Below are positions 961-54,029 of a DNA stretch of 64,000 nt, in pieces. The position numbers and the translations under genes are program-made. The notes under the pieces are model-generated. The model worked only from the letters and a program-made list of their open reading frames with translations, did not search any database and was not told where the DNA came from. This stretch comes from Epilithonimonas lactis (GTDB lineage: Bacteria > Bacteroidota > Bacteroidia > Flavobacteriales > Weeksellaceae): positions 124,001 to 188,000 of the forward strand of contig NZ_FOFI01000003.1 in the NCBI RefSeq assembly GCF_900110605.1, in the 5' to 3' direction. Position 1 is the first letter of the stretch. Each line of letters begins with the position of its first letter.

Positions 961-2965
961 TGATCTCATCGATCATCCGCTTGCTTCTCTCGTCCAATCT
1001 GGATTTTATCGGGAAGAAAAATCGGAACGGATTTCGCACAAAATATCGGAAGATCTCACTGAATATTTCCCGCGCCTCGCTCATCTCCACTTTTCTGGAA
1101 CGGAATGCCAACAACATAGACAATCCAAAACTAACGGCAAAGTTGAAAAAACCGATCACGAAAACCGTGATGAATGAGATCCAAAATGCGTAGGAAGTGA
1201 TCACAAAATCTTTACCATATAGTCCAAGTGCAAAGTTACCAGCTGCAAACGTAATATGCCTAATATCGAGATCCAATCCCAAGAAAAGTCCTATAGGCGC
1301 AGTGGCACCAAGAAAAACACCGAACCAGAAATTGGAAACGATCCCAGCCCAATTGTTGGAATAATAGACCGACAAACGCTTTGCGATCCGCTGCCCAAAG
1401 AAATAATTGATAAAAGGATTTTTTGCAATCCGCTTAGGAATCTGGAAGAAGACCGCATTGTTACTGATATTCCCTGAAATGACACCCGAAATAAATAGAA
1501 AAACCCCAGCAATACAAGCATGCAAAATAGCTTTGGATTGAAATGGATCCAGATCATAAAGCAATCTACTCGACTTATCAAAAGCAAAATTCTGTTTGAA
1601 AAGAATCTCCAGGCCGTAAATAATGATCAAGGAAACTGGAAAAGACATCAACACATTGCCTACAAATGCAATAAATTGAGATCTGAACAATTGGGAAACA
1701 ACATGCGCAAACTCAATGTAGGTATTCCTGCTATTACCATCGGACAACACCTTTGCCATCGTAGCTGCAGTCATCGCCGGCTGTTTTGTAGCCAAAGTGA
1801 AATGCATCAAATAGATCATGACAAAACCCATGGCATAATTCATAGAATAGAGAAAAGCGTGGGCAAAATCACTGGCAGGAATGTAACTGTAAAGCATCTT
1901 CAAAACACAAAGCGCTCCAACGATGACGCCGCCGCCAGATGCTTTCCAAAACATTTTCATGTAGGCTCTAAGCGTGGAAGTAATATAATGAGTTCCTGTT
2001 TCTGCAGTGTGATTGGTGATCAGATGCGACATCAATCTTGTACTGTCCGAAACCAAATCGCGAAGATTGTTCTTATGCGATTTATACTTTAGAATATTAA
2101 AAAATAACTGCTTGGAATTGATCAAATAATCCCGGTCATCATCTATCACAAATAATTTGATAATGTCGGACATTCTATTCAGCTGTTGTCTAATCTTCAA
2201 CAGTGCCTGATTGGTCTTGCTGGAAATCCCATATTTTGCAGAATTCTTGAATGCAATATTTACGAACTCCAGACATTGATCCATGTAGATCTTGGTCTGT
2301 TTGTAAACCTCATCTGTTGAAGTGAACTTGAAATCCGAATTTTGGTTGAAGTCGGCATTGATGACATCCAATTCATTTTGCAGAGCCAGAAAAGGATTGT
2401 CAAAATTACGATATTCTGGTGCCATCTTCATGACATCGACATCCAAAGCATTTCCGATAACTCGCCAAGCCAGGATATTAAGCGAAAATAAAAGTTCTTT
2501 CTTAACATGGGGATTGCTGATAAATCTATCGATCTTCAACAACTGAAAGAGTTCATCCAACTTATCCTCCGGCGAATTCTGGAAAAACTGAAGGTCCTTT
2601 TTCGGTGTTACCAAAACATTGTCCACCAAATACCAAATGGTGTTTTCGTTTTCTATTGGCGGTAAAACCTTGTTAAGAACTCTTTTTTTAAACTCAGGAT
2701 AGAAAGCATTTTCGGATAAGATATCCGCTTCCGTCAATGACAGATTGAATGGCTTATCCTGAAAAATATTATGGATGTAAAAAGTCAGATTATCCTTTAT
2801 GGTATCATTATCTTTGAGATACGCTGTGAAAACACCTAAGTCTTCTCGCTTGAGGCTTGTGATAATTTCGGATAAAGGCTGCAAAGACAAAGTCTCATTT
2901 CTTTCGCTGAAATAATTCTTTAAAATAGTACTGAAACTGTCTTTTCTAATTAATCTAATTGGCAT
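938..2965 (-). CDS. COG4389 membrane protein (family misnamed 'site-specific recombinase')
   Basis: This 675-residue protein matches the length and build of COG4389 (Pfam SpecificRecomb, 'Gcr'). A soluble helical N-terminal half of about 330 residues precedes a C-terminal half with several hydrophobic segments, for example GGGVIVGALCVLKMLYSYIP near residue 345 and YAMGFVMIYLMHF near 385. The family name comes from one early report. Nothing here looks like a tyrosine or serine recombinase, and a membrane role is more likely. It starts 16 bases after the mtgA stop on the same strand, so the two are probably co-transcribed. Its 3' end overlaps the convergent gene ending at 960. Family assignment is good; function is unknown. 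Confidence 0.75.
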   Translation of the reverse strand: MPIRLIRKDSFSTILKNYFSERNETLSLQPLSEIITSLKREDLGVFTAYLKDNDTIKDNLTFYIHNIFQDKPFNLSLTEADILSENAFYPEFKKRVLNKVLPPIENENTIWYLVDNVLVTPKKDLQFFQNSPEDKLDELFQLLKIDRFISNPHVKKELLFSLNILAWRVIGNALDVDVMKMAPEYRNFDNPFLALQNELDVINADFNQNSDFKFTSTDEVYKQTKIYMDQCLEFVNIAFKNSAKYGISSKTNQALLKIRQQLNRMSDIIKLFVIDDDRDYLINSKQLFFNILKYKSHKNNLRDLVSDSTRLMSHLITNHTAETGTHYITSTLRAYMKMFWKASGGGVIVGALCVLKMLYSYIPASDFAHAFLYSMNYAMGFVMIYLMHFTLATKQPAMTAATMAKVLSDGNSRNTYIEFAHVVSQLFRSQFIAFVGNVLMSFPVSLIIIYGLEILFKQNFAFDKSSRLLYDLDPFQSKAILHACIAGVFLFISGVISGNISNNAVFFQIPKRIAKNPFINYFFGQRIAKRLSVYYSNNWAGIVSNFWFGVFLGATAPIGLFLGLDLDIRHITFAAGNFALGLYGKDFVITSYAFWISFITVFVIGFFNFAVSFGLSMLLAFRSRKVEMSEAREIFSEIFRYFVRNPFRFFFPIKSRLDERSKRMIDEITTGSTNH

Positions 2966-2981
2966 CTTAGCACAAAAGTAA

Positions 2982-3629
2982 TCATTTCAGAACAATGTTA
3001 TTCATCTGTCTCATGATCCACTTATGTTTTTTGTTGAGATACGCACTTGGATTTTTAGGATCATATTTCTTGGGATTTGGTAAAACTGCTGCAATCCAAG
3101 CCGCTTCACTTTTAGTCAGATCTTTTGCTGGTTTGTTGTAGTAATATTGAGCAGCCGCTTCCACACCAAACACGCCTTGACCCATTTCTATGACATTCAG
3201 ATATCTCTCAAGAATAATATCTTTTCCCCAAATCTTTTCGATGATGAAGGTGTAGATCGCTTCCAAGCCTTTTCGCAACCAACTCCTACCTTGCCAAAGG
3301 AAAACATTTTTTGCAGTCTGCTGAGAAACCGTACTTCCGCCACGCACGACTTTGCCCTTCTTATCATTCTTTTGCATCGCCTTTTCTATGGCTTTGTAAT
3401 CAAAACCGTTGTGGTTGAAAAATGCTTGATCTTCGGATGCCAGTACCGCTTTTTTGATGTTGGTTCCCATATCATCATAGGCAATATAATCCCGTTGCAT
3501 TTTCCCGTACTTGAAGACACTTCCCAACTGTGTCCATGTAACAGGCGGATTGAAAAATATACCAAAGATCACGAAAAGTATATTGGCTATAATAAGGATA
3601 AAGACCAGTTTTTTGATAAGCTTCCACAT
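2982..3629 (-). CDS. mtgA: Monofunctional peptidoglycan transglycosylase
   Basis: The 215-residue protein polymerises lipid II into glycan strands at the outer face of the inner membrane. An N-terminal signal anchor (LVFILIIANILFVIFGIFF) is followed by a GT51 domain. The family motifs are visible in order: SEDQAFFNHNGFD with the catalytic Glu, RGGSTVSQQTAKN, IIEKIWGKDIILERYLN, and GVEAAAQYYYNKPAKDL. There is no transpeptidase domain and the length is typical of MtgA, so this is the monofunctional form. The COG4389 gene follows after 16 bases. The region upstream (3630-3760) is AT-rich and shows no clear promoter. Confidence 0.95.
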   Translation of the reverse strand: MWKLIKKLVFILIIANILFVIFGIFFNPPVTWTQLGSVFKYGKMQRDYIAYDDMGTNIKKAVLASEDQAFFNHNGFDYKAIEKAMQKNDKKGKVVRGGSTVSQQTAKNVFLWQGRSWLRKGLEAIYTFIIEKIWGKDIILERYLNVIEMGQGVFGVEAAAQYYYNKPAKDLTKSEAAWIAAVLPNPKKYDPKNPSAYLNKKHKWIMRQMNNIVLK

Positions 3630-3830: not shown

Positions 3831-3834
3831 CTTG

Positions 3835-3908
3835 TGAGCGCGTCAGGATTCGAACCTGAGACCGTCTGCTTAGAAGGCAGATGCTCTATCCAGCTGAGCT
3901 ACGCACCC
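3835..3908 (-). tRNA. tRNA-Arg (UCU), copy 2
   Basis: A 74-base cloverleaf. Acceptor GGGTGCG pairs with CGCGCTC, the anticodon arm is TCTGC/GCAGA around CTTCTAA (anticodon TCT), and the T-arm loop is TTCGAAT. No CCA is encoded, and the discriminator is A. The sequence is identical to the copy at 4105-4178. Confidence 0.97.
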
Positions 3909-3941
3909 ATTTGTAATTTTTTCGAAAATCACTAAAAATTG

Positions 3942-4016
3942 TCGGGGCGGCAGGATTCGAACCTGCGACCTCCTGGTCCCAAACCAGGCGCGATGACCGG
4001 ACTACGCTACGCCCCG
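3942..4016 (-). tRNA. tRNA-Pro (UGG), copy 2
   Basis: A 75-base cloverleaf. Acceptor CGGGGCG pairs with CGCCCCG, and the anticodon arm is CCTGG/CCAGG around TTTGGGA (anticodon TGG). It lies 33 bases upstream of tRNA-Arg copy 2 and is identical to the copy at 4211-4285. Confidence 0.97.
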
Positions 4017-4071
4017 AAAATTAAAAATATTTAATATCACCTAGCGAAATAAATATCTAGCTTTGCGATAT

Positions 4072-4100
4072 AAAAAAAAGAGACCAAGAATGATCTCTCT
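4072..4100 (-). terminator. Weak terminator between the two Pro-Arg units
   Basis: On the minus strand AGAGA...TCTCT forms a short hairpin followed by a run of T (plus-strand a-tract 4072-4079). The stem is only about 5 bp, so partial read-through into the second Pro-Arg unit is likely. No strong promoter was seen between the units. Confidence 0.5.
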
Positions 4101-4104
4101 TTTG

Positions 4105-4178
4105 TGAGCGCGTCAGGATTCGAACCTGAGACCGTCTGCTTAGAAGGCAGATGCTCTATCCAGCTGAGCTACGCACCC
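4105..4178 (-). tRNA. tRNA-Arg (UCU), copy 1
   Basis: The same 74-base sequence and folding as 3835-3908, anticodon TCT. It is the second half of the first Pro-Arg unit of the tandem duplication. Confidence 0.97.
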
Positions 4179-4210
4179 ATTTGTAATTTTTTCGAAAATT
4201 ACTAAAAATG

Positions 4211-4285
4211 TCGGGGCGGCAGGATTCGAACCTGCGACCTCCTGGTCCCAAACCAGGCGCGATGACCGGACTACGCTACGCCCCG
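4211..4285 (-). tRNA. tRNA-Pro (UGG), copy 1
   Basis: The same 75-base sequence as 3942-4016, anticodon TGG. The 32-base spacer to tRNA-Arg is nearly identical to the spacer in the other unit, showing that the whole pair was duplicated. Confidence 0.97.
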
Positions 4286-4306
4286 ATAAGTCATCTTTTT
4301 TAGCTG

Positions 4307-4393
4307 CGGAGAGTAAGGGATTCGAACCCTTGGAACCGTTTCCAGTTCGCTTGTTTAGCAAACAAGTCCTTTCGGCCTCTCAGGCAACTCTCC
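4307..4393 (-). tRNA. tRNA-Ser (GCU)
   Basis: An 87-base class II tRNA. Acceptor GGAGAGT pairs with ACTCTCC, the anticodon loop is TTGCTAA (anticodon GCT), and there is a long variable arm. It is the first gene of the minus-strand tRNA transcript, 21 bases upstream of tRNA-Pro copy 1. Confidence 0.97.
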
Positions 4394-4527: not shown

Positions 4528-5535
4528 ATGCGTAATTCATTATATCTCATAACATTAGGATCATTAATCATTTCCTGCGGATCCCAACAAAAAACTGTAA
4601 AAAGTAAAACTCCGGTAAAATCTACCACGCCAGTTGCAGTTGTTCCTATAAAAAAACCAGAAATCAAACAGGATGAAGGCGACTATTACAAAGTCAATAT
4701 TGCGGATATAACGAAAAATGACAACACGATAAGTTATGGTTCTATAGTAAGCGCCAATCCGGCAGGATACAAAGTGACCAAAACATATTTTCCTTCTGTC
4801 GGGCAGAATTTCCGCCAACGCTATGTAATTTTACATCATACAGTATTAAATGATGAAAAATCAATCTCAACTCTTACACAACAAGCTGTAAGCGCCCATT
4901 ACCTTGTGAATACATTGCCAGATAAAGAAATCTATCAATTGGTGGATGAAAACAAGCGCTCTTACCATGCTGGAATTAGTTTCTGGAGAAAGGACCAACA
5001 ATTAAATGATACTTCCATAGGAATCGAGATCGTGAATATGGGTTACACCGTCGATTCTACAGGTCTGCGGGTTTTCACGCCGTATCCAGAGGAGCAAATC
5101 AAAAAAGTAGCCGCTTTGGTGAAGGATCTTGTCGTTAGATACAACATCCAACCAACCAATGTTCTTGCTCATTCCGACATTGCCCCAACCAGAAAACAAG
5201 ACCCAGGTCCACTTTTCCCTTGGAAGAGACTTTACGACGAATATCAAATCGGGATGTGGTACGACGAAACCGCGAAACAGACTTTCCTAAATCAAATCTT
5301 AACAACCAACGAAATTACTTTACAATATAATAATCCTGAATTTGTTTCCAGAGTTCAACAACAGTTGGCTCAGTTTGGCTACGCATTGAATGTGAATGGC
5401 GTTTGGGACAAAGCTACAAAGCAAACGATTGAAGCTTTCCAATTCCACTTCCGACCAATGAATTACAGTGGGATTATGGATGCGGAGACTTTGGCAATTT
5501 TGCAGGCTTTGATTCAGAAGTATCCGCAGAAGTAA
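4528..5535 (+). CDS. N-acetylmuramoyl-L-alanine amidase lipoprotein with peptidoglycan-binding domain
   Basis: The 335-residue lipoprotein cleaves the bond between MurNAc and the L-Ala of stem peptides. The signal peptide ends at a lipobox LIISC (Cys near residue 17) and is followed by a low-complexity linker. An Amidase_2 (PGRP-like) domain then spans about residues 80-240, with zinc-ligand motifs VILHHTV, SAHYLV and LAHSDIAPTRKQDPG. A C-terminal PG_binding_1 domain (about 265-330) contains NGVWDKATKQTIEAFQ. The architecture matches AmiD-type outer-membrane amidases used in wall recycling. It is the first gene of a short plus-strand run; the GNAT gene begins one base after its stop. Substrate preference cannot be read from the sequence. 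Confidence 0.93.
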   Translation: MRNSLYLITLGSLIISCGSQQKTVKSKTPVKSTTPVAVVPIKKPEIKQDEGDYYKVNIADITKNDNTISYGSIVSANPAGYKVTKTYFPSVGQNFRQRYVILHHTVLNDEKSISTLTQQAVSAHYLVNTLPDKEIYQLVDENKRSYHAGISFWRKDQQLNDTSIGIEIVNMGYTVDSTGLRVFTPYPEEQIKKVAALVKDLVVRYNIQPTNVLAHSDIAPTRKQDPGPLFPWKRLYDEYQIGMWYDETAKQTFLNQILTTNEITLQYNNPEFVSRVQQQLAQFGYALNVNGVWDKATKQTIEAFQFHFRPMNYSGIMDAETLAILQALIQKYPQK

Positions 5536-43920: not shown

Positions 43921-45354
43921 TCAGTTTTCCTGACTCAAAAACTCATCCACTTTCTGCGCACATTTCCGCCCTTCAGCAATTGCCCAAACCACTAGACTCT
44001 GCCCCTTTCTCGCATCGCCACAAGAGAAATATTTCGTCTGATTGGTTTTGAATTCCTTATCATTTCCGATGAGATTTCCTTTCGGGTCGAGGTTGATATC
44101 CAAATCTTCCACCAAACCCTTGTGCTCCACGTGCGTGTAACCCAACGCGATGAAAGCCAAATCGCAATCGATGACAAATTCTGAGTTTGGTTTTTCCGTA
44201 TAGAGATTCCATTTTCCGTCGGCATCTTTTGTCCATTCTGCTTCTACCAATCGGATTCCAGTTAGATTTCCGTTTTCATCTTTCACAAACTCTTTGGAAT
44301 TGACAGACCATTTCCTATCAACGCCTTCCTCGTGAGACGACGTGATGTGCAAAGTCATTGGCATTGTCGGCCAAGGCATCGTAGCATCACGTTCGGTCGG
44401 TTGCATTGGTTTATAATAGATTTGATAAACCACTTCCGCACCTTGACGATTTGAAGTTCCAATACAATCCGAACCCGTATCTCCACCGCCAATCACAACT
44501 ACTTTTTTCCCTTTTGCATCAATATCGTTTTCATTAAATGAAATTCCACTGACTTTTTTGTTGCTTTGAGAAAGATAATCCATCGCGAAATGGACACCTT
44601 TCGCATCACGATTCGGAATCATCAATTCTCTCGGAACCGTACTTCCCAACGACAAAACAACAGCATCAAAATTCCGATTGAGGTCTTCCACAGAATAGTT
44701 GACACCGACATTGACATTCGTTTTAAATTCAATTCCTTCTTCTTTCATCCACTGAACACGGCGTTCCACGATATTTTTATCCAGTTTAAAATCCGGAATT
44801 CCAAACCTCAATAAGCCACCAATTTCAGGGTCACGTTCAAAAACCGTGACTTGATGTCCCATTTGATTTAATTGATAGGCCGAAGCTAAACCAGCTGGTC
44901 CAGAACCAACAACTGCCACTTTTTTATCTGTTTTGAATTTTGGAATAATTGGTTTCGCAAAACCTTTTTCGAAGGCAATTTCGATGATATTTTTCTCCAC
45001 TTCTTCTATCGCAACCGGCAAACTATTGATTCCCAAAACACAAGCGCCTTCGCAAGGTGCAGGACAAATTCTTCCCGTAAATTCAGGGAAATTGTTGGTT
45101 GAAATCAATAATTGATAAGCCTTTTCCCATTGCTCCTTATAAACCGCTTCATTGAATTCCGGAATCATATTCCCCAGCGGACAGCCACTTTGGCAAAACG
45201 GAACTCCACAACTCATACAGCGCGACGATTGTTTGTGAAGATAATCTTCGGAAATCGGTTTGTAAAATTCTTTATAATGCTGAATCCTTTCTTCCACAGG
45301 AAGTTTTTTCGGCAACTCTCTATCATATAATAAAAATCCGTCTGCTTTTCCCAT
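43921..45354 (-). CDS. gltD: Glutamate synthase small subunit
   Basis: The 477-residue subunit feeds electrons from NADPH to GltB. N-terminal Cys residues for [4Fe-4S] centres are in CMSCGVPFCQSGCPLGNMIP and GRICPAPCEGACVLG. FAD and NAD(P) Rossmann motifs follow (VVGSGPAGLASAYQL and VVVIGGGDTGSDCIG). Its ATG overlaps the gltB stop by one base (TAATG), a sign of translational coupling. Together they make glutamate from glutamine and 2-oxoglutarate. The terminator at 43868 closes the operon. Confidence 0.97.
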   Translation of the reverse strand: MGKADGFLLYDRELPKKLPVEERIQHYKEFYKPISEDYLHKQSSRCMSCGVPFCQSGCPLGNMIPEFNEAVYKEQWEKAYQLLISTNNFPEFTGRICPAPCEGACVLGINSLPVAIEEVEKNIIEIAFEKGFAKPIIPKFKTDKKVAVVGSGPAGLASAYQLNQMGHQVTVFERDPEIGGLLRFGIPDFKLDKNIVERRVQWMKEEGIEFKTNVNVGVNYSVEDLNRNFDAVVLSLGSTVPRELMIPNRDAKGVHFAMDYLSQSNKKVSGISFNENDIDAKGKKVVVIGGGDTGSDCIGTSNRQGAEVVYQIYYKPMQPTERDATMPWPTMPMTLHITSSHEEGVDRKWSVNSKEFVKDENGNLTGIRLVEAEWTKDADGKWNLYTEKPNSEFVIDCDLAFIALGYTHVEHKGLVEDLDINLDPKGNLIGNDKEFKTNQTKYFSCGDARKGQSLVVWAIAEGRKCAQKVDEFLSQEN

Positions 45355-48300
45355 TATTTCAATTCATTTATTTTATTTTCAATCGCTTTTTTGTAATCTC
45401 GAGGATAAACTTTGATAATGTGTTTCAAATTATTTTCGAAGTCACTTAATAAATATGAAGCGAGTTCACTATTTGTCATTTCGAAATGTTCTTTAATCAA
45501 ATCATTAATAATCAATTTATCGTCTTCCGTAATCTCTTCCAGGTTTGCCATATCAGGATTGAAATTCTCTTCCAAAGACCTTTCAATATCCCAAACATAG
45601 GCAATTCCGCCACTCATTCCCGCCCCGAAATTCCTTCCGACGCCACCAAGTATCAAAACTGTTCCGCCAGTCATATATTCGCACCCGTGGTCGCCAACGC
45701 CTTCCACAACAGCCGTTGCACCCGAATTCCGAACTGCAAAACGTTCACCTGCCATTCCCGAAACAAAGATTTTGCCCGAAGTTGCGCCATACAAAGCGAC
45801 ATTTCCGATGATGCTATTTTCGTGAGCTTTGATGACAGATTCCTTATCGTGATAAACCGCCAGCTTCGCTCCCGAAATTCCTTTACCAAAATAATCATTG
45901 GCATCGCCTTCGAGAATCATCGTGATTCCTTTATTACAAAACGCACCGAAACTTTGTCCGGCTGTTCCTTTAAAATTGAATTTCAAAGAATCGTCGGGCA
46001 TTCCTTCTGAATGATATTTTTTGGTCAATTCGTGCGAGAGAATTGTTCCGACGGTTCTATCTGTATTTTTAATTTGGAAATCAGCTTCCGCAGTTCCATT
46101 TTCTTCGATTGCCAACTTCGAAGCTTCCAACATTTCCCAGGAAAGGGAATCATCGATACCGTGGTCTTGATTTTCATCTTTAATGATTGGCAAATCAGTT
46201 TCAGGCTTGAAAAGAATTGGACTTAAGTCAATATTTTTATGTTTCCAGAATGAGATATCTTTTTTCGTGGTCAGACATTGAGATTGCCCGACCATTTCGT
46301 CAATCGTTTTAAAACCTAAACTCGCCATTATTTCTCTAACTTCCATCGCCAAAAAAGTGAAATAACTGACCAAATGTTCTGGTTTCCCTTTGAACTTCTT
46401 GCGAAGTTCTTCATTTTGAGTGGCGATACCGACCGGACAAGTGTTGAGATGACATTTTCGCATCAGAATACAACCTTCAACAATCAGCGCAGAGGTGGAA
46501 ATCCCCCATTCTTCCGCGCCAAGCAAAGTCGCAATCACAATATCTCGACCAGTTTTTACCTGGCCATCAACTTGAACTGTCACGCGCTGGCGAAGTTTAT
46601 TTTTAATTAAAGTCTGCTGCGTTTCCGCCAATCCCAATTCCCAAGGCAAACCTGTATGTCTCGTCGAACTTAACGGAGAAGCGCCAGTTCCGCCGTCATA
46701 ACCGGAAATTAAGATATGGTCAGCTTTCGCTTTTGCAACACCGGAAGCAATCGTTCCGACGCCAGCTTTTGAAACCAATTTGACCGAAATCCTTGCGTGG
46801 CGATTGGCATTTTTTAAATCAAAAATCAATTGTGCCAAATCCTCAATCGAATAAATATCGTGATGCGGTGGTGGCGAAATTAATCCAACGCCCGGTGTGG
46901 AATGTCGGGTTTTTCCAATCCATTCATCCACCTTGAATCCTGGCAATTGTCCACCTTCGCCAGGTTTTGCACCTTGCGCCATTTTGATTTGAATCTCTTC
47001 GGCTTCCGCTAAATATCTTGCTGTGACTCCAAATCTTCCCGAAGCGACCTGCTTGATTGCCGAACGCATATCATCGCCATTTTCATTAATGGTGTAACGA
47101 TTTTCATCTTCGCCACCTTCGCCTGTATTGCTTTTCGCACCGATTCTGTTCATCGCAATCGCAAGTGTGGTGTGTGCTTCCCAGGAAATCGAACCGAAAG
47201 ACATTGCGCCCGTTGCAAAACGTTTCAGAATATTTTCCAAAGGTTCAACTTCATCAATTGAAATCCCTTCTCGGTCATTTTTAAAATCCATCAAACCTCT
47301 TAATAAAGAAGCCTTCTCGGATAATTGATTAACGGTTCTGGAATATTTTTTGAATAAATCATAACGGTCATTCCACGTCGCCTGTTGCAAAAGATGAACA
47401 GATTGTGGATTGAACTGATGATATTCATTTTCCGGTTTCCATTGATAAATCCCACCTGGTTCTAATACTTTTTGCGGAAGTTTTGTTCCGAACGCATTGA
47501 AATGTTTAACTAAAGCTTCTTTGGCGATTTCATCAAAACCAACACCGTTTATTCTGGAAATTGCGCCTGTAAAGCAAGTATTGACAACGGTTTTATCAAT
47601 CCCAATGATTTCGAAAATCTGTGCACCGTGATAAGATTGCAAAGTCGAAATTCCCATTTTGGAAAATATCTTCAACAATCCATCGCCGACTGCTTTTTTA
47701 TAATTGTATTTTAATTGGTCTAGGTCTGCTTCTTCACCAAATTCATTCTTACGAAACATCTCTCTGATACTTGCCAAAGCCAGATAAGGATTGATAGCCG
47801 TAGCTCCGAATCCCAGCAAAGACGCAAAATGATGAACTTCCCAAACATCACCAACTTCCATTACCAAACCGACTTTTCTGCGAACACCTTTGCGAATCAA
47901 ATGGTGATGAACAGCCGAACAAGCCAAAAGTGAAGGAATCGTCGCGTGACCAGAATCCATCGAACGGTCGGAAAGTACAATCACTTCAAAACCGTCGTCT
48001 ACCGCATCTGTTGCGTAACGGCAAATCCTGTCAATCGCTTTTCTAAGATTTCCATCTTTTCCGTCAGACTTGAAATAAGTATAAATCGTTTTCGACTGGA
48101 ATTTCCCTGTATCAACACTTCGAAGTTTTTCTAGTTGTTCATTATTAAGAATTGGATTATCGAGTTTTATAGAATGGGCAAAATTTTTATCCTCTTGCAA
48201 AAGATTTCCGCTCCCACCGATTATCGTCGTGAGAGACATTACCAATTTTTCACGAATTGGGTCGATTGGCGGATTTGTAACCTGAGCAAATAATTGTTTG

Positions 48301-49892
48301 AAATAAGAACTGAGATGTTGTGGCTTTTCACTCAAAACGGCCAAGGGCGCATCGAAACCCATAGAGCCAATTGGTTCCTTTCCGAATTCCGCCATTTCTT
48401 TGATAATGACATCCAAATCTTCTCTGGAATATCCAAACGCTTTTTGATATTTGAAAATATCTTCTGACTGCAATTTGTTGAAACGGATTTTCGGACTTGG
48501 TAATTCGTTGATATTGATATTCATTTTATCCAACCAATCTCGGTATGGTTTTGAAGTACAAATCTCTTTCTTCAGCTCTTCATCACTAATGATTTCGCCC
48601 TTTTTCATATCAACCAAGAACATTTTTCCAGGCTGAAGACGACCTCGCTTGATGACTTTTTGAGGGTCGACCGGCAAAGCGCCAGACTCAGATGCCATAA
48701 TCACGCGGTCATCCGACGTAACACAATATCGCGAAGGGCGAAGTCCATTTCTGTCAAGCGTCGCACCGATGATGTCGCCATCGGTAAATGAAACGGAAGC
48801 CGGACCATCCCATGGTTCCATCATACAGGCGTGGAATTCGTAGAAATCTTTTTTGTAAGAATCCATCTGGTCGTGGCCATCCCAAGCTTCGGGAATCAAC
48901 ATCATCATTGTATGTGGAAGTGATTGCCCTGAATGATAAAGCAATTCCACCATATTGTCCAAATAAGAAGAATCGGATTGTCCCGGTTTTGTGATCGGCA
49001 AGATCATATCCATTTCCTGCGCTGTGAAATTGGGACTTTCAAATGTTTTTTCGGAGGACCGAAGCCAATTGAGGTTTCCACCAATTGTATTGATCTCGCC
49101 ATTGTGCGCTAAAAAACGGAAAGGTTGCGCCAAACTCCAAGTTGGATTTGTGTTTGTGGCAAAACGGGAATGCACCATTCCAAAAGCGGAACGAAGTCGC
49201 GGATCCGTGAGATCTTTGAAATAATTCCTGATCTGAACAGAACGCAATTGTCCTTTATATATCAATTTTTTGCACGAGAACGAAGCGACATAGAAACCAA
49301 TGGGATCATTGCTGGTCACACTCATGATCTGATGTGAAATATAATTCTTGAAAACAAAGAGTTTTCTTTCCAAATCTTTTTCCGTTTCAGTATCGTAAGG
49401 ACGTTCTACAAAAAGCATTTCCATTACAGGTTCGACACTTTTCGCCAAATCACCAAGATCCAAATTGTTGACAGGAACCGGACGATAACCTAAGATCTTA
49501 AGACCTAACTTCTCAGCAGATTGCTCAATGATCTCTTTGCATTCCTGTCTGATGAAATTGTTCTGTGGAAAAAAAAGCATTCCGAGTCCATAATGACCAG
49601 GTTCCGGAAGGTCGATTCCGTAATTGAGCGCTTCATCGTAGAGCAACTCGTGTGGAATTTGAATTTGGATTCCGGCGCCGTCGCCAGTATTGCTTTCGTA
49701 GCCGGTTGCGCCCCGATGCTCCATATTTTCGAGCATCGTAATGGCGTCGCTGACAATCTTGAAACTTTTGACACCCTTAATATTAGCGACAAAACCAACG
49801 CCGCAGGAATCGAATTCTGTTTCGGGCAAATAAAGTCCTTGGTTTTTGGGATTTGAATTTTGAGAAATTTCCTTGGCTCTTTTCATCTTCAT
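45354..49892 (-). CDS. gltB: Glutamate synthase large subunit
   Basis: The 1512-residue GOGAT alpha subunit carries the N-terminal amidotransferase nucleophile Cys30 (EFDSCGVGF), the part before it being a cleaved propeptide. The central and FMN-binding synthase domains contain GGTGASPLSSTRHTGLPWELGLAE. The 3Fe-4S Cys cluster is in CILMRKCHLNTCPVGIA, and the C-terminal glutamate synthase beta-helix ends the protein (GGTVLILGGVGRNFGAGMSGG). Length and order are complete. A TAAATTTG box (49909-49916, minus) lies 17 bases before the ATG. Confidence 0.97.
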   Translation of the reverse strand: MKMKRAKEISQNSNPKNQGLYLPETEFDSCGVGFVANIKGVKSFKIVSDAITMLENMEHRGATGYESNTGDGAGIQIQIPHELLYDEALNYGIDLPEPGHYGLGMLFFPQNNFIRQECKEIIEQSAEKLGLKILGYRPVPVNNLDLGDLAKSVEPVMEMLFVERPYDTETEKDLERKLFVFKNYISHQIMSVTSNDPIGFYVASFSCKKLIYKGQLRSVQIRNYFKDLTDPRLRSAFGMVHSRFATNTNPTWSLAQPFRFLAHNGEINTIGGNLNWLRSSEKTFESPNFTAQEMDMILPITKPGQSDSSYLDNMVELLYHSGQSLPHTMMMLIPEAWDGHDQMDSYKKDFYEFHACMMEPWDGPASVSFTDGDIIGATLDRNGLRPSRYCVTSDDRVIMASESGALPVDPQKVIKRGRLQPGKMFLVDMKKGEIISDEELKKEICTSKPYRDWLDKMNININELPSPKIRFNKLQSEDIFKYQKAFGYSREDLDVIIKEMAEFGKEPIGSMGFDAPLAVLSEKPQHLSSYFKQLFAQVTNPPIDPIREKLVMSLTTIIGGSGNLLQEDKNFAHSIKLDNPILNNEQLEKLRSVDTGKFQSKTIYTYFKSDGKDGNLRKAIDRICRYATDAVDDGFEVIVLSDRSMDSGHATIPSLLACSAVHHHLIRKGVRRKVGLVMEVGDVWEVHHFASLLGFGATAINPYLALASIREMFRKNEFGEEADLDQLKYNYKKAVGDGLLKIFSKMGISTLQSYHGAQIFEIIGIDKTVVNTCFTGAISRINGVGFDEIAKEALVKHFNAFGTKLPQKVLEPGGIYQWKPENEYHQFNPQSVHLLQQATWNDRYDLFKKYSRTVNQLSEKASLLRGLMDFKNDREGISIDEVEPLENILKRFATGAMSFGSISWEAHTTLAIAMNRIGAKSNTGEGGEDENRYTINENGDDMRSAIKQVASGRFGVTARYLAEAEEIQIKMAQGAKPGEGGQLPGFKVDEWIGKTRHSTPGVGLISPPPHHDIYSIEDLAQLIFDLKNANRHARISVKLVSKAGVGTIASGVAKAKADHILISGYDGGTGASPLSSTRHTGLPWELGLAETQQTLIKNKLRQRVTVQVDGQVKTGRDIVIATLLGAEEWGISTSALIVEGCILMRKCHLNTCPVGIATQNEELRKKFKGKPEHLVSYFTFLAMEVREIMASLGFKTIDEMVGQSQCLTTKKDISFWKHKNIDLSPILFKPETDLPIIKDENQDHGIDDSLSWEMLEASKLAIEENGTAEADFQIKNTDRTVGTILSHELTKKYHSEGMPDDSLKFNFKGTAGQSFGAFCNKGITMILEGDANDYFGKGISGAKLAVYHDKESVIKAHENSIIGNVALYGATSGKIFVSGMAGERFAVRNSGATAVVEGVGDHGCEYMTGGTVLILGGVGRNFGAGMSGGIAYVWDIERSLEENFNPDMANLEEITEDDKLIINDLIKEHFEMTNSELASYLLSDFENNLKHIIKVYPRDYKKAIENKINELK

Positions 49893-50414
49893 TCTTTTTG
49901 GATATTACCAAATTTAATGAAAAAAGAAAGAAAAATGATTTTAAATTACCAATTCAACAATTATATAAAACATAATTAGAATTAAAATCAACAAAATAAT
50001 ATAAATTTTATCGATAATTTACATTTAATTAATATTAGATGGTTATTTGTTAAAATTAAATTAATATTGAAAATATTTAAATGACTGAAAATGAATACAT
50101 TATTCAAAAAGCATTCATTTTAATTAGAATATCTTCTAGAGAAACTCTTTAAAATGACAATAATTTTTGAGAATGAAATTAATTAAAACATACCCTTTAA
50201 AAATATGAGGTACAAATTTTAAAATTCAGTTTATCATAAAATTCCTATAACTTTTATGTGGTAGAAATTAAAAAAACTAAAAATTAAAACAGAAAACAAA
50301 AACGGTGTAGAAATTAACAAAATGCTAATTCAACATACATATCATCAAATTGATATTAAATCAATAAAAAACCCCACTTTTACAAGCAGGGTCATTAATA
50401 TTATAAAGAAATCA
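49893..50414. other. AT-rich gap between gltB and the lysS-end remnant
   Basis: These 522 bases are extremely AT-rich and hold no supported gene or RNA. Only the gltB -7 box near 49909 and a terminator hairpin at 50366-50392 were recognised. The run lies between the lysS-end remnant and gltB, so it may contain the old boundary of the inserted cassette, but no inverted ends or transposase traces are seen. Confidence 0.5.
50366..50392 (-). terminator. Terminator beyond the lysS-end remnant (probable original lysS terminator)
   Basis: On the minus strand GACCCTGC and GTGGGG can pair, followed by TTTTTTATTG. The stem is imperfect. It lies about 20 bases after the TAA of the duplicated lysS end, the distance expected if this was the native terminator of lysS before insertion. 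Confidence 0.55.
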
Positions 50415-50495
50415 TTAAATTAATTTCATCCACAAAGCCTCATCAATCTTATCAACTTTTACCAAATTATTTTTAGTTAAAGTTTTTGAAGCCTT
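50415..50495 (-). pseudogene. Remnant of the lysS 3' end (duplicated target)
   Basis: These 81 bases align without gaps to the last 81 bases of lysS (52329-52409, offset 1914) with about seven mismatches. In frame they still read KASKTLTKNNLVKVDKIDEALWMKLI and TAA, against the live end ...KVDEVLWMKLV and TAG. The differences at protein level are conservative (V to I, V to A, V to I), so this was once a translated lysS end. The match stops within five bases of the small gene's stop codon. It is best explained as the original lysS end displaced by insertion of the cassette. Confidence 0.8.
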
Positions 50496-50499
50496 TAAT

Positions 50500-51018
50500 T
50501 TAATCAAACAAAATATAATTACCTTCAAAAAGATCAATATTATATTTTAATTTGAACAATACTTTTTTTTCGGACGTACTAGACTGCGGAACTTTTCTTT
50601 TGGTATAACCTCTTGGATTTACACTTTCAAAAACTGCTAAAGCTTCTTTACGTTCAAAATTCTCTAAAAATTCTTTGTAATATTTAAAAGTATTTTCAAG
50701 CTGTTTATATATTTTCTTTCTATGGTTTGCTTTATTTTCTTTAGTAGCTTTTATTTCTACAAAATGAATTTTATTAGAATTGAAAACAACAAAGTCACAT
50801 TGTCCATTTTTCTCACTTAACATTACACAATTATCATTTTGGACAAAATGATAACTTTCATTGATAGTATTTTCTATGTGAATGTGATAAATTTCATTAG
50901 CGCTTACAAAAACACCTTTCTTTGAAACCTCATCATCGTAAGCAAATTTATGTCTATCAGATATTTCTATAGAACATAACTCTTTCAAGGGAAATATATC
51001 ATTAAACTCAGCTATCAT
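50500..51018 (-). CDS. PD-(D/E)xK-like nuclease candidate, partner of the AAA ATPase
   Basis: The 172-residue protein has a likely restriction-endonuclease-like core: D75 in QCDFVVF, then E88-I-K90 in HFVEIKATK, an order of strand, hairpin and ExK found in PD-(D/E)xK nucleases. A downstream helix has Q106 (KQLENTFKYY), comparable with the QxxxY helix of RecB-type nucleases. The N- and C-terminal parts are not recognised. Its ATG overlaps the stop of the ATPase gene by four bases (ATGA), so the two are translationally coupled. The gene is AT-rich. The likely job is cutting nucleic acid when released or activated by the ATPase, but no activity can be shown from sequence. Confidence 0.7.
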   Translation of the reverse strand: MIAEFNDIFPLKELCSIEISDRHKFAYDDEVSKKGVFVSANEIYHIHIENTINESYHFVQNDNCVMLSEKNGQCDFVVFNSNKIHFVEIKATKENKANHRKKIYKQLENTFKYYKEFLENFERKEALAVFESVNPRGYTKRKVPQSSTSEKKVLFKLKYNIDLFEGNYILFD

Positions 51019-52307
51019 AAAGCTAATAGTCTATCAAATTCATTTGAAAATTTGTCAGTCACATTATCTATAATATTGGATTTTATCTGCCCCAGACTAT
51101 CATTCATAATTTTATAAGATTTTCCATTTCTCAACTCATACACATTAAAAAACTCGGGATTAATCCAAGATTCTCTTTTTATAATTTTATGAACTTCATT
51201 TGGTTTTTCTTTTCCTTTTTCGAAAGCTAGCAATAAATTATTAATTGATGCTAAGATATATGGACTATGAGTGGTCATAACCATTTTTTTTCTTTGATAA
51301 TTCTTGACTTTAAAATCAAAAATATTTTTGACTAAATATTTAATTAGTTCATACTGTGTTTCCGGATAAATATTTAGCTCTGGCTCTTCCACAACATAAT
51401 TGAAGTAATAATTTTCTTTTAAAGTATTTGCATACTCTATCAGCAAAATAATAGGTATAATACTCTGAAGCCCCGAAGCGGACTGAAGTAAGTCTGTTTT
51501 TTCTTCTTTATTATGATATATATAAGAGGTTTTACCTTCTCTTTTATAACTATATTTTTTATCTATTAAATTTAAAGGAATTTCCTTTACAACGTTTAGT
51601 GCTTTTTCATACTCTTGTCCAATTTCTAAAAGATGTTTTGGTATTTTAACATCATTATTAATTAAACCCAAGGTGTTTTCAGCTATGATATGTAGAAAAT
51701 TTCTTTCTGATGGAATATATTGAGAATCATAATACTTATAAACTCCTTTATCCTCAAAGCTTTCTTCAATAATTTTAAATACATCTTCTATGTCACTTTC
51801 CGTGATCGGTGCACTTAAGCTCGTATCAATAGCTTCATAAAAAGCATCTAAATCAGGATGAGTTAATCCAGTAGCCAAGAGATCCATCATAATCAAACCT
51901 TTTACATAATCTTTAATCTTCTCCTTATCAACTTTTCCAGTTTTAGTATATTCTTTGACTATATTTTTTTTATATAAATTTCTGAAATTTATTTTATAAT
52001 AACTTTTACTTTCATATTCAAAATGAAAATTATATCCAATATTTTTGTTTTGTTTTACAATTCCTTTGTAAAAACAGATAACAGTTTTTTCATTCAAAAA
52101 CTTGTTCATTCCATATTTTGCCAACTCTTTTTCAAACAAGACATCTTCATTCTCTCTAAAATTTTCATCCTCAAAAATTGCAATTAATTTAGCAATAGTA
52201 CTTTTACCAGTAGCTTGCTTGCCAATAAGACATAGGAAATCCCTGACCTCGATATCAACATCTTTCAGAGGTCCAAAATTTTTAACAATAAGTCTTGCTG
52301 ATTGCAT
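51015..52307 (-). CDS. SMC-like AAA15/AAA21-type ATPase of a two-gene cassette
   Basis: The 430-residue protein has an ABC/SMC-type ATPase split by a long middle region. Walker A is GKQATGKST (29-37), the ABC-type signature is SASGLQSI (276-283), Walker B is YVVEEPELN (304-312), and the H-loop is TTHSPY (345-350). The insert (about 55-260) is helical and charged. This layout is that of AAA15/AAA21 ATPases found in OLD, Septu, PARIS and RloA-type defence systems; no DUF4435 or HNH partner is present. It begins 21 bases after the lysS stop with no promoter between, so it is probably read from the lysS promoter. Codon use and GC are below those of lysS. Confidence 0.85.
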   Translation of the reverse strand: MQSARLIVKNFGPLKDVDIEVRDFLCLIGKQATGKSTIAKLIAIFEDENFRENEDVLFEKELAKYGMNKFLNEKTVICFYKGIVKQNKNIGYNFHFEYESKSYYKINFRNLYKKNIVKEYTKTGKVDKEKIKDYVKGLIMMDLLATGLTHPDLDAFYEAIDTSLSAPITESDIEDVFKIIEESFEDKGVYKYYDSQYIPSERNFLHIIAENTLGLINNDVKIPKHLLEIGQEYEKALNVVKEIPLNLIDKKYSYKREGKTSYIYHNKEEKTDLLQSASGLQSIIPIILLIEYANTLKENYYFNYVVEEPELNIYPETQYELIKYLVKNIFDFKVKNYQRKKMVMTTHSPYILASINNLLLAFEKGKEKPNEVHKIIKRESWINPEFFNVYELRNGKSYKIMNDSLGQIKSNIIDNVTDKFSNEFDRLLAL

Positions 52308-52328
52308 CTTGATTTTTTTACTAAATTA

Positions 52329-54029
52329 CTAAACTAATTTCATCCACAAAACCTCATCAACTTTGTCAACTTTTACCAAATTATTCTTAGTTAAAGTTTT
52401 TGAAGCCTTGTCCCATTTCTTTCCGGACAATTGAGAACGGTTTTTAACTTCATTAAGCTCTAAAGGCTCTTCCTGAGAATTAAGAATCTCGAGAATCACT
52501 TTTTCGTCTTCTCCCAACTCCACTTTTGGAACCACTTTCTCTGGTCTCATTTGGGGGAAGAAAAGAACTTCCTGGATCGATGGATTATTGGTCAGGAACA
52601 TGATCAATCTGTCCATTCCAATTCCCATACCAGATGTTGGCGGCATTCCGTATTCCAAAGCTCTCAAGAAATCTTCATCAATAAATTGCCCGGCTTCATC
52701 ATCTCCTTTTTCAGCTAGTTTCAATTGGTCTTCAAAACGTTCTCTTTGGTCAATTGGGTCATTAAGCTCAGAATAAGCATTCGCAATCTCTTTACCGCAA
52801 ACCATTAATTCGAAACGCTCGGTCAAACCTTCCTGCGTTCTGTGTTTTTTGGTCAAAGGCGACATTTCCACAGGATAATCAGTAATGAATGTTGGCTGGA
52901 TGAAGTTTCCTTCACATTTCTCTCCGAAAATTTCGTCGATTAATTTTCCTTTACCCATTGTTTCATCAACATCAATTCCGATAGATTTGGCAAAATCGAA
53001 CAATTCCTGCTCTGACTTTCCAGTGATATCAAAACCTGTATATTTTTGAATTGCTTCTGTCATAGAAACTCTTGCATAAGGCGCTTTGAAATCAATCTCC
53101 TGGTCACCAAATTTGGCTTTCGTAGTTCCGTTTACAGCAATTGCGCAATGTTCTATCATTTTTTCAGTGAAATCCATCATCCAGTAATAATCTTTGTAAG
53201 CAACATAGATTTCCATTACTGTAAATTCCGGATTGTGCGTTCTGTCCATCCCTTCATTCCTGAAGTTTTTTGAGAATTCATAAACACCGTCAAATCCTCC
53301 AACAATCAGTCTTTTCAGATATAATTCATTAGCAATTCTTAGATATAAAGGAATATCCAAAGCATTGTGATGCGTAATGAAAGGTCTTGCCGCAGCTCCA
53401 CCTGGAATAGCCTGCAAAACAGGAGTTTCAACTTCAATATAACCAGCATCATTGAAAAACTGACGCATTGCGGTGTACATTTTTGTTCTCTTCACGAAAG
53501 TTTCTTTAACGTTTGGATTCACAATTAAATCTACGTAACGCTGTCTGTAACGTAATTCTGCATCGTTGAAAGCATCGTGCACGACTCCATTTTCATCAGT
53601 TCTTGGCTGAGGAAGCGGACGAAGTGTTTTGGTCAAGATTTGAAAATTGGTCACCTTCACGGTCATCTCGCCAACTTGTGTGTTGAACAATTCACCTTCC
53701 ACGCCGATGATATCGCCGATGTCAAGAAGATGCTTGTAAACCTCGTTATACAAAGTTTTGTCTTCACCAGTGCAGATCTCGTCTCGGTTAAAATAAACCT
53801 GGATCTTGCCTTCGGAATCCTGCAATTCTGCAAAACTCGCCTTTCCCTGAATTCTTCTGGACATCAACCTTCCAGCAATCACCACCTTTTTTCCTTCTTG
53901 GAAATCCTGTTTTATAGACTTCGTGGAATCGGTGATTTTGTATTCAGCGGCCGGGAACGCATCGATTCCCAGGTCGGTCAGTTTTTGCAATTTTTCGCGA
54001 CGGATAATTTCCTGTTCTGATAATGACAT
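52329..54029 (-). CDS. lysS: Lysyl-tRNA synthetase, class II, with C-terminal extension
   Basis: The 566-residue enzyme charges tRNA-Lys. The OB anticodon domain fills residues 55-150. The class II catalytic domain shows motif 1 near PVLQAIPGGAAARPF, motif 2 FRNEGMDRTHNPEFT, and motif 3 GMGIGMDRLIMFLTN. After the usual end an extension of about 65 residues (from EDEKVILEILNS to WMKLV), with a winged-helix look, follows, as in Flavobacteriia. Its last 27 codons are those repeated at 50415-50495, so the present 3' end may have come with the inserted cassette. A TATTTTTG box (54053-54060, minus) lies 23 bases upstream. Confidence 0.96.
   Translation of the reverse strand: MSLSEQEIIRREKLQKLTDLGIDAFPAAEYKITDSTKSIKQDFQEGKKVVIAGRLMSRRIQGKASFAELQDSEGKIQVYFNRDEICTGEDKTLYNEVYKHLLDIGDIIGVEGELFNTQVGEMTVKVTNFQILTKTLRPLPQPRTDENGVVHDAFNDAELRYRQRYVDLIVNPNVKETFVKRTKMYTAMRQFFNDAGYIEVETPVLQAIPGGAAARPFITHHNALDIPLYLRIANELYLKRLIVGGFDGVYEFSKNFRNEGMDRTHNPEFTVMEIYVAYKDYYWMMDFTEKMIEHCAIAVNGTTKAKFGDQEIDFKAPYARVSMTEAIQKYTGFDITGKSEQELFDFAKSIGIDVDETMGKGKLIDEIFGEKCEGNFIQPTFITDYPVEMSPLTKKHRTQEGLTERFELMVCGKEIANAYSELNDPIDQRERFEDQLKLAEKGDDEAGQFIDEDFLRALEYGMPPTSGMGIGMDRLIMFLTNNPSIQEVLFFPQMRPEKVVPKVELGEDEKVILEILNSQEEPLELNEVKNRSQLSGKKWDKASKTLTKNNLVKVDKVDEVLWMKLV

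Follow-up and report, generated by a model that had tools for sequence, protein, structure and literature searches.

In a 64,000-nucleotide stretch of Epilithonimonas lactis DNA (the window), two adjacent genes, A and B, form a compact foreign pair that was inserted at a specific point of lysS by replacement of the end of that gene, leaving lysS unbroken, as comparison of the two junctions with the same region in relatives establishes. By its profile matches, the pair belongs to the already catalogued PADLOC-DB candidate system PDC-M29. What is new is the placement of the pair, and its pattern of mobility interests us more than its identity. Our preferred reading, to which we give a probability of about two in three, is that the locus is an integrase-less gene-end cassette, similar to a cis-mobilizable element (CIME), whose cargo is a candidate PDC-M29-type immune system of two genes, in which an ATPase gates a nuclease.

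Both genes are on the minus strand. Gene A (51015 to 52307) encodes a 430-aa ABC/AAA15 ATPase and gene B (50500 to 51018) a 172-aa protein predicted to be a PD-(D/E)xK-type nuclease. Both open reading frames are intact, and our reading of the window recovered the positions and the four-base overlap that an initial annotation of this DNA had reported. The low GC content noted there was also found again, with 27% in A and 26% in B against 40-41% in the flanking lysS and gltB. A and B are the sole genes of the 1.9-kb insert, which holds no integration or transfer genes. The start of A lies 21 nt past lysS, and the stop codon of B lies 4 nt ahead of a remnant of lysS.

The motifs that had been read in A are a Walker A (G29-KQATGKS-T37, residues 29-37, at 52197 to 52223 on the minus strand), an SASGLQ signature (S276-ASGLQ), a Walker B of sequence EEPE (307-310) and the histidine of an H-loop (H347). 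Their key residues are invariant across 15 A homologues, namely G29, G34, K35, S36, S278, G279, Q281, E307-E310 and H347. The Pfam family AAA_15 matches A at 1e-24 and the AriA profile does so at 4e-25, while the best PADLOC profile is PDC-M29A at 2.1e-33. An AlphaFold model of A (pLDDT 83) has as its nearest folds Rad50 heads and the PtuA proteins of Septu and retrons, with a Foldseek value of 1.6e-8 against PtuA. No Toprim fusion was found within the 430 residues of the protein.

Only six columns are invariant among 16 homologues of B: C74, D75, F86, E88, K90 and Q106. Since so few positions are invariant and they include D75, E88, K90 and Q106, this nuclease-like set is not due to chance, and the initial annotation was right to single out D75, E88-x-K90 and a downstream Gln (the stretch from D75 to K90 is at 50749 to 50796, minus strand). 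Sub-threshold Pfam matches for B are to NERD and HSDR_N_2, both nuclease families. In the fold list for the AlphaFold model of B (pLDDT 85), McrC, Can2, Cdn1, FokI and Card1 stand near the top, all of them PD-(D/E)xK nucleases, with Z of only 5-6. These matches are modest (best Z 5.9, Foldseek E never below 0.07), and as far as they go they point to the nuclease-like character that had been proposed for the small protein. Together, the homologues and the predicted fold support B as a PD-(D/E)xK nuclease. There was no match in B to an HNH domain at E values up to 1, nor to DUF4435 or AriB in Pfam and PADLOC, and a search of PDB sequences with the B profile returned unrelated weak matches only.

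The best PADLOC profile for B is PDC-M29B (1.2e-11), and B homologues from other genomes match the same profile at 1e-10 to 1e-16. Because A and B have PDC-M29A and PDC-M29B as their best matches in PADLOC-DB 2.0.0, and homologous B proteins also match PDC-M29B, the pair belongs to a catalogued candidate defence system. The profiles are matched in the same order and by overlapping genes, although the scores of the window pair are moderate. Thus, of the initial description of an undescribed module, the word undescribed falls, and the AAA15-type ATPase with a PD-(D/E)xK-like partner, its foreign character and its insertion at a gene end all stand. PDC-M29 is named in no paper of the literature that we searched, and nothing published on its location or mechanism was found there. 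Candidates of the PDC series are largely unvalidated (PMC12988326), and that article cites a 2024 preprint by Payne et al. (doi 10.1101/2024.01.29.577857) as the origin of the series.

As had been proposed, the pair is not Septu, PARIS or Gabija, from which it differs by the type of partner. The predicted fold of A is near PtuA of Septu (PtuA-PtuB) and of the retron PtuAB effectors, but PtuB is an HNH protein, whereas B carries PD-(D/E)xK residues. With PARIS (AriA-AriB) the pair shares an AAA15 ATPase that the AriA profile recognizes, while B shows these same residues and no match to an AriB of the DUF4435/Toprim type. Gabija (GajA-GajB) resembles it in an OLD-like ATPase domain, seen in A as weak profile matches, but A is without the Toprim fusion and no UvrD-type GajB is present, the neighbours of the pair being lysS and gltB. 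A complete Gabija system (GajA 2e-209, GajB 4e-257; L095 10788-14961) is found a few genes from a PDC-M29-type pair in Flavobacterium sp. 270. The window pair is probably a phage-defence switch composed of an ATPase and a small nuclease-type enzyme; its profile matches, the nearness of the ATPase fold to PtuA and Rad50, the invariant nuclease residues, the fold list of the partner, the foreign GC content and the patchy distribution all favor this function.

The host gene of the insertion, lysS (52329 to 54029, minus strand), is intact and encodes 566 aa. In line with the gene-end insertion that had been suggested, the pair is bracketed by a 101-nt direct repeat, 86% identical, one copy of which is the lysS 3′ end; a search of the organism's own genome found only these two flanking copies. 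Comparison of the repeat with relatives identifies the copy at 52309 to 52409 (minus strand) as the incoming 3′ end with which the intact gene now closes, together with a few bases past the stop codon. The second copy is a remnant of the native 3′ end (50415 to 50495, minus strand; 81 nt including the stop codon), and it is followed by the predicted native lysS terminator (50370 to 50393, minus strand) and the lysS-gltB spacer. In relatives, the same terminator and spacer lie directly behind lysS. When translated, the remnant reaches a score of 123, where the background maximum is 44. The copies first differ past a 23-nt core, AAGGCTTCAAAAACTTTAACTAA, present at the left junction on the lysS side (52387 to 52409, minus strand) and at the right junction (50473 to 50495, minus strand), and so the exchange point lies inside or just before this core. 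The gene gltB (45354 to 49892, minus strand) comes next after lysS, with no pair between them, in 15 of the 22 other genomes of the genus, and a credible B is absent from all 22. The incoming lysS tail is Weeksellaceae-like, not Flavobacterium-like. No terminator was predicted between lysS and A on their strand. A and B are therefore probably cotranscribed with lysS, in a unit that the native terminator now closes.

A search for lysS tails in 197 genomes of the family flagged five besides the window with a second match, and four of these (G464, G561, G570 and G480) were readable with both tail copies in one locus. The insert in G561 is a lone methyltransferase (L242 2345-3109) and that in G570 is a HigB-type toxin with a partner (L243, reversed, 2472-3142); these genomes represent two genera other than that of the window, and the cargoes are unrelated. 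The inserts of the window, G561 and G570 join lysS at 81-84 nt from the stop-codon end, which is within 3 nt of each other, at the Asp-Lys codons of KKWDK, and two of these three near-identical junctions depend on decayed remnants. Three unrelated cargoes at one point of lysS argue for site-specific recombination. At the lysS 3′ end of G464 lies a 5.5-kb element (L240 2890-8448) that encodes a tyrosine recombinase (Phage_integrase 5e-27) together with an HTH protein and a replication protein of the G2P type. It brings its own lysS tail, and its junction is at the FFPQMRPEKK codons, at 225 nt and therefore 144 nt upstream of the shared point. In G480 a short unknown gene at lysS is accompanied by a longer duplication; 350 nt that span the end of lysS and the sequence past it, near-identical in both copies (L241, reversed, 2366-2715 and 4551-4900), flank a 172-aa open reading frame. 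The genome of the window itself encodes 16 tyrosine recombinases, all outside the window. Literature searches on lysS as an integration site and on gene-end defence cassettes gave nothing specific.

Because the lysS junction is shared with unrelated inserts and the insert contains no integrase, we read the pair as an integrase-less, CIME-like gene-end cassette. The sequence shows that an incoming piece made up of its own lysS tail, A and B was joined to lysS by recombination at one set point, some 27 codons short of the gene's end, so that lysS stayed whole with a new tail and the old tail was left behind B. The recombinase would have been either supplied in trans or since lost. Like a CIME, the insert has att-like flanking repeats derived from the end of the target gene and no integration genes; as a putatively mobile element, it differs from a CIME in its small size and in showing no trace of a parent element, none of which was found in our searches. 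In the proposed mechanism, A would assemble into an ABC-type ATPase complex resembling Rad50 and PtuA and would keep B inactive, as in PtuAB or AriAB. An infection signal would shift the ATP state of A, and the released B would then cut DNA or another nucleic acid, which would stop the infection or the cell.

Searches for homologous pairs and their neighbourhoods describe patchy accessory genes and not housekeeping genes, and the relatives, which are spread over Bacteroidota, likewise tend to lie immediately behind core genes. The close copies of A in Flavobacterium have the pair directly behind lysS in 12 of 12 genomes, most with a terminator ahead of A, and no lysS remnant was found behind these pairs by eye or by alignment. 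Three more distant copies are behind metG (G708), behind dnaK (G677) and elsewhere (G611). An alignment scan of GTDB yielded 80 loci, while a scan of GTDB contigs with A as a single sequence gave no confirmed relative. Besides lysS, the GTDB loci lie behind metG (Maribacter), dnaK (five Flavobacterium), metF and between sdhA and sdhB (the pair is wedged between the latter two in L147, L152 and L166), and ligA, carB, smc, murI, apt, gapA and others were recognized as upstream genes by eye only. The metG-linked pairs come from three genomes; in one of these (L107, Maribacter) a decayed remnant of the metG end lies behind B, and its score of 46 compares with a background maximum of 44. Across 70 of 86 loci, a co-directional open reading frame of at least 100 codons ends within 350 nt ahead of A, a count without a matched control that takes in some spurious frames from high-GC genomes and some genomes twice. 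A quick tree of A groups the loci by site, and it requires one origin for metG and two for lysS, the latter being Flavobacterium with the window and a Saprospiraceae MAG (L138, upstream gene 68% identical to LysS). No B homologue was found in plasmid and phage records at 1e-5, and viral contigs gave distant ATPases only, with best segments 22-38% identical. The loci L145 (5880-6000), L148 and L158 drew attention through a dnaK-type stop-codon stretch and terminator ahead of a pair that is no longer beside dnaK, and through terminators that recur on either side of pairs linked to dnaK. These recurring terminators were not taken as proof, since terminators of the same genome can be alike.

Several other accounts of the locus have to be weighed. 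One possibility, though a doubtful one, is that the insert descends from a larger integrative element whose integrase and transfer genes disappeared once it had arrived, as opposed to a cassette that was always small. CIMEs are defined as elements that decayed in this way (PMC5704250), and the element within lysS of G464 bears an integrase. That element sits at a different point, however, and the spacing of 21 nt ahead of A and 4 nt behind B leaves no residue of other genes; relatives at other genes are equally compact. We consider it rather unlikely that the repeat arose when donor DNA carrying lysS, A and B was taken up and joined by RecA-dependent or illegitimate recombination. The absence of an integrase from the insert would suit this explanation, as would the close Flavobacterium copies, which are also behind lysS and would give donor DNA a stretch homologous to that gene. 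Against this, the junction is common to three unrelated inserts within 3 nt, and the incoming tail resembles Weeksellaceae instead of Flavobacterium.

The remaining two alternatives concern function. PARIS cuts tRNA-Lys, and the pair could likewise be tied to lysS, guarding or using the lysyl-tRNA pathway, with lysS co-expression as the reason for its location. The 12 Flavobacterium copies, the window and, independently, the Saprospiraceae MAG are all behind lysS, as this would predict, but related pairs are found behind metG, dnaK, metF, sdhA and other core genes, unrelated cargo occupies the same lysS spot, and the Flavobacterium copies mostly have a terminator ahead of A, which together make this idea very improbable. 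A toxin-antitoxin-like or plasmid-stabilising module with no role against phages, in which A keeps the nuclease B in check and cells that lose the pair die, strikes us as unlikely. The four-base overlap suits restraint of one protein by the other, and G570 has a HigB-type toxin pair in the same spot; however, the ATPase A is of the ABC type seen in PARIS, Septu and retron effectors, the PADLOC profiles match, and no antitoxin-like DNA-binding domain was found in the pair by a Pfam domain search.

Returning to the gene-end cassette that we favor, the pair offers a concrete, testable defence candidate in Bacteroidota, with A as the ATPase and B as the nuclease. As a tentative extension, to which we give a good deal less than even odds, gene-end cassettes without an integrase may form a class of their own in Bacteroidota, made up of PDC-M29-type pairs and other small cargo; each would carry the 3′ end of the core gene that it targets, be moved in trans and switch targets (lysS, metG, dnaK and others) over evolution. 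If so, the class would be a reservoir of defence genes outside islands, concealed behind housekeeping genes. Defence discovery looks mostly in islands and prophages, and gene-end cassettes, if real, would be missed by island-based searches. The gene-end repeats would then provide a direct sequence handle for more cargo and for the recombinase that moves the cassettes. Two further observations were made along the way. A cluster of tRNA genes at 3834-4393 of the window has Arg-Pro repeated twice, then Ser. Among the relatives, B falls into two clades (L066, L086, L089, L092 and L093 versus L060, L065, L085, L087, L088 and L090), with 27-29% versus 41-54% identity to the B of the window. The A proteins remain similar, which would suit an exchange of the nuclease partner.
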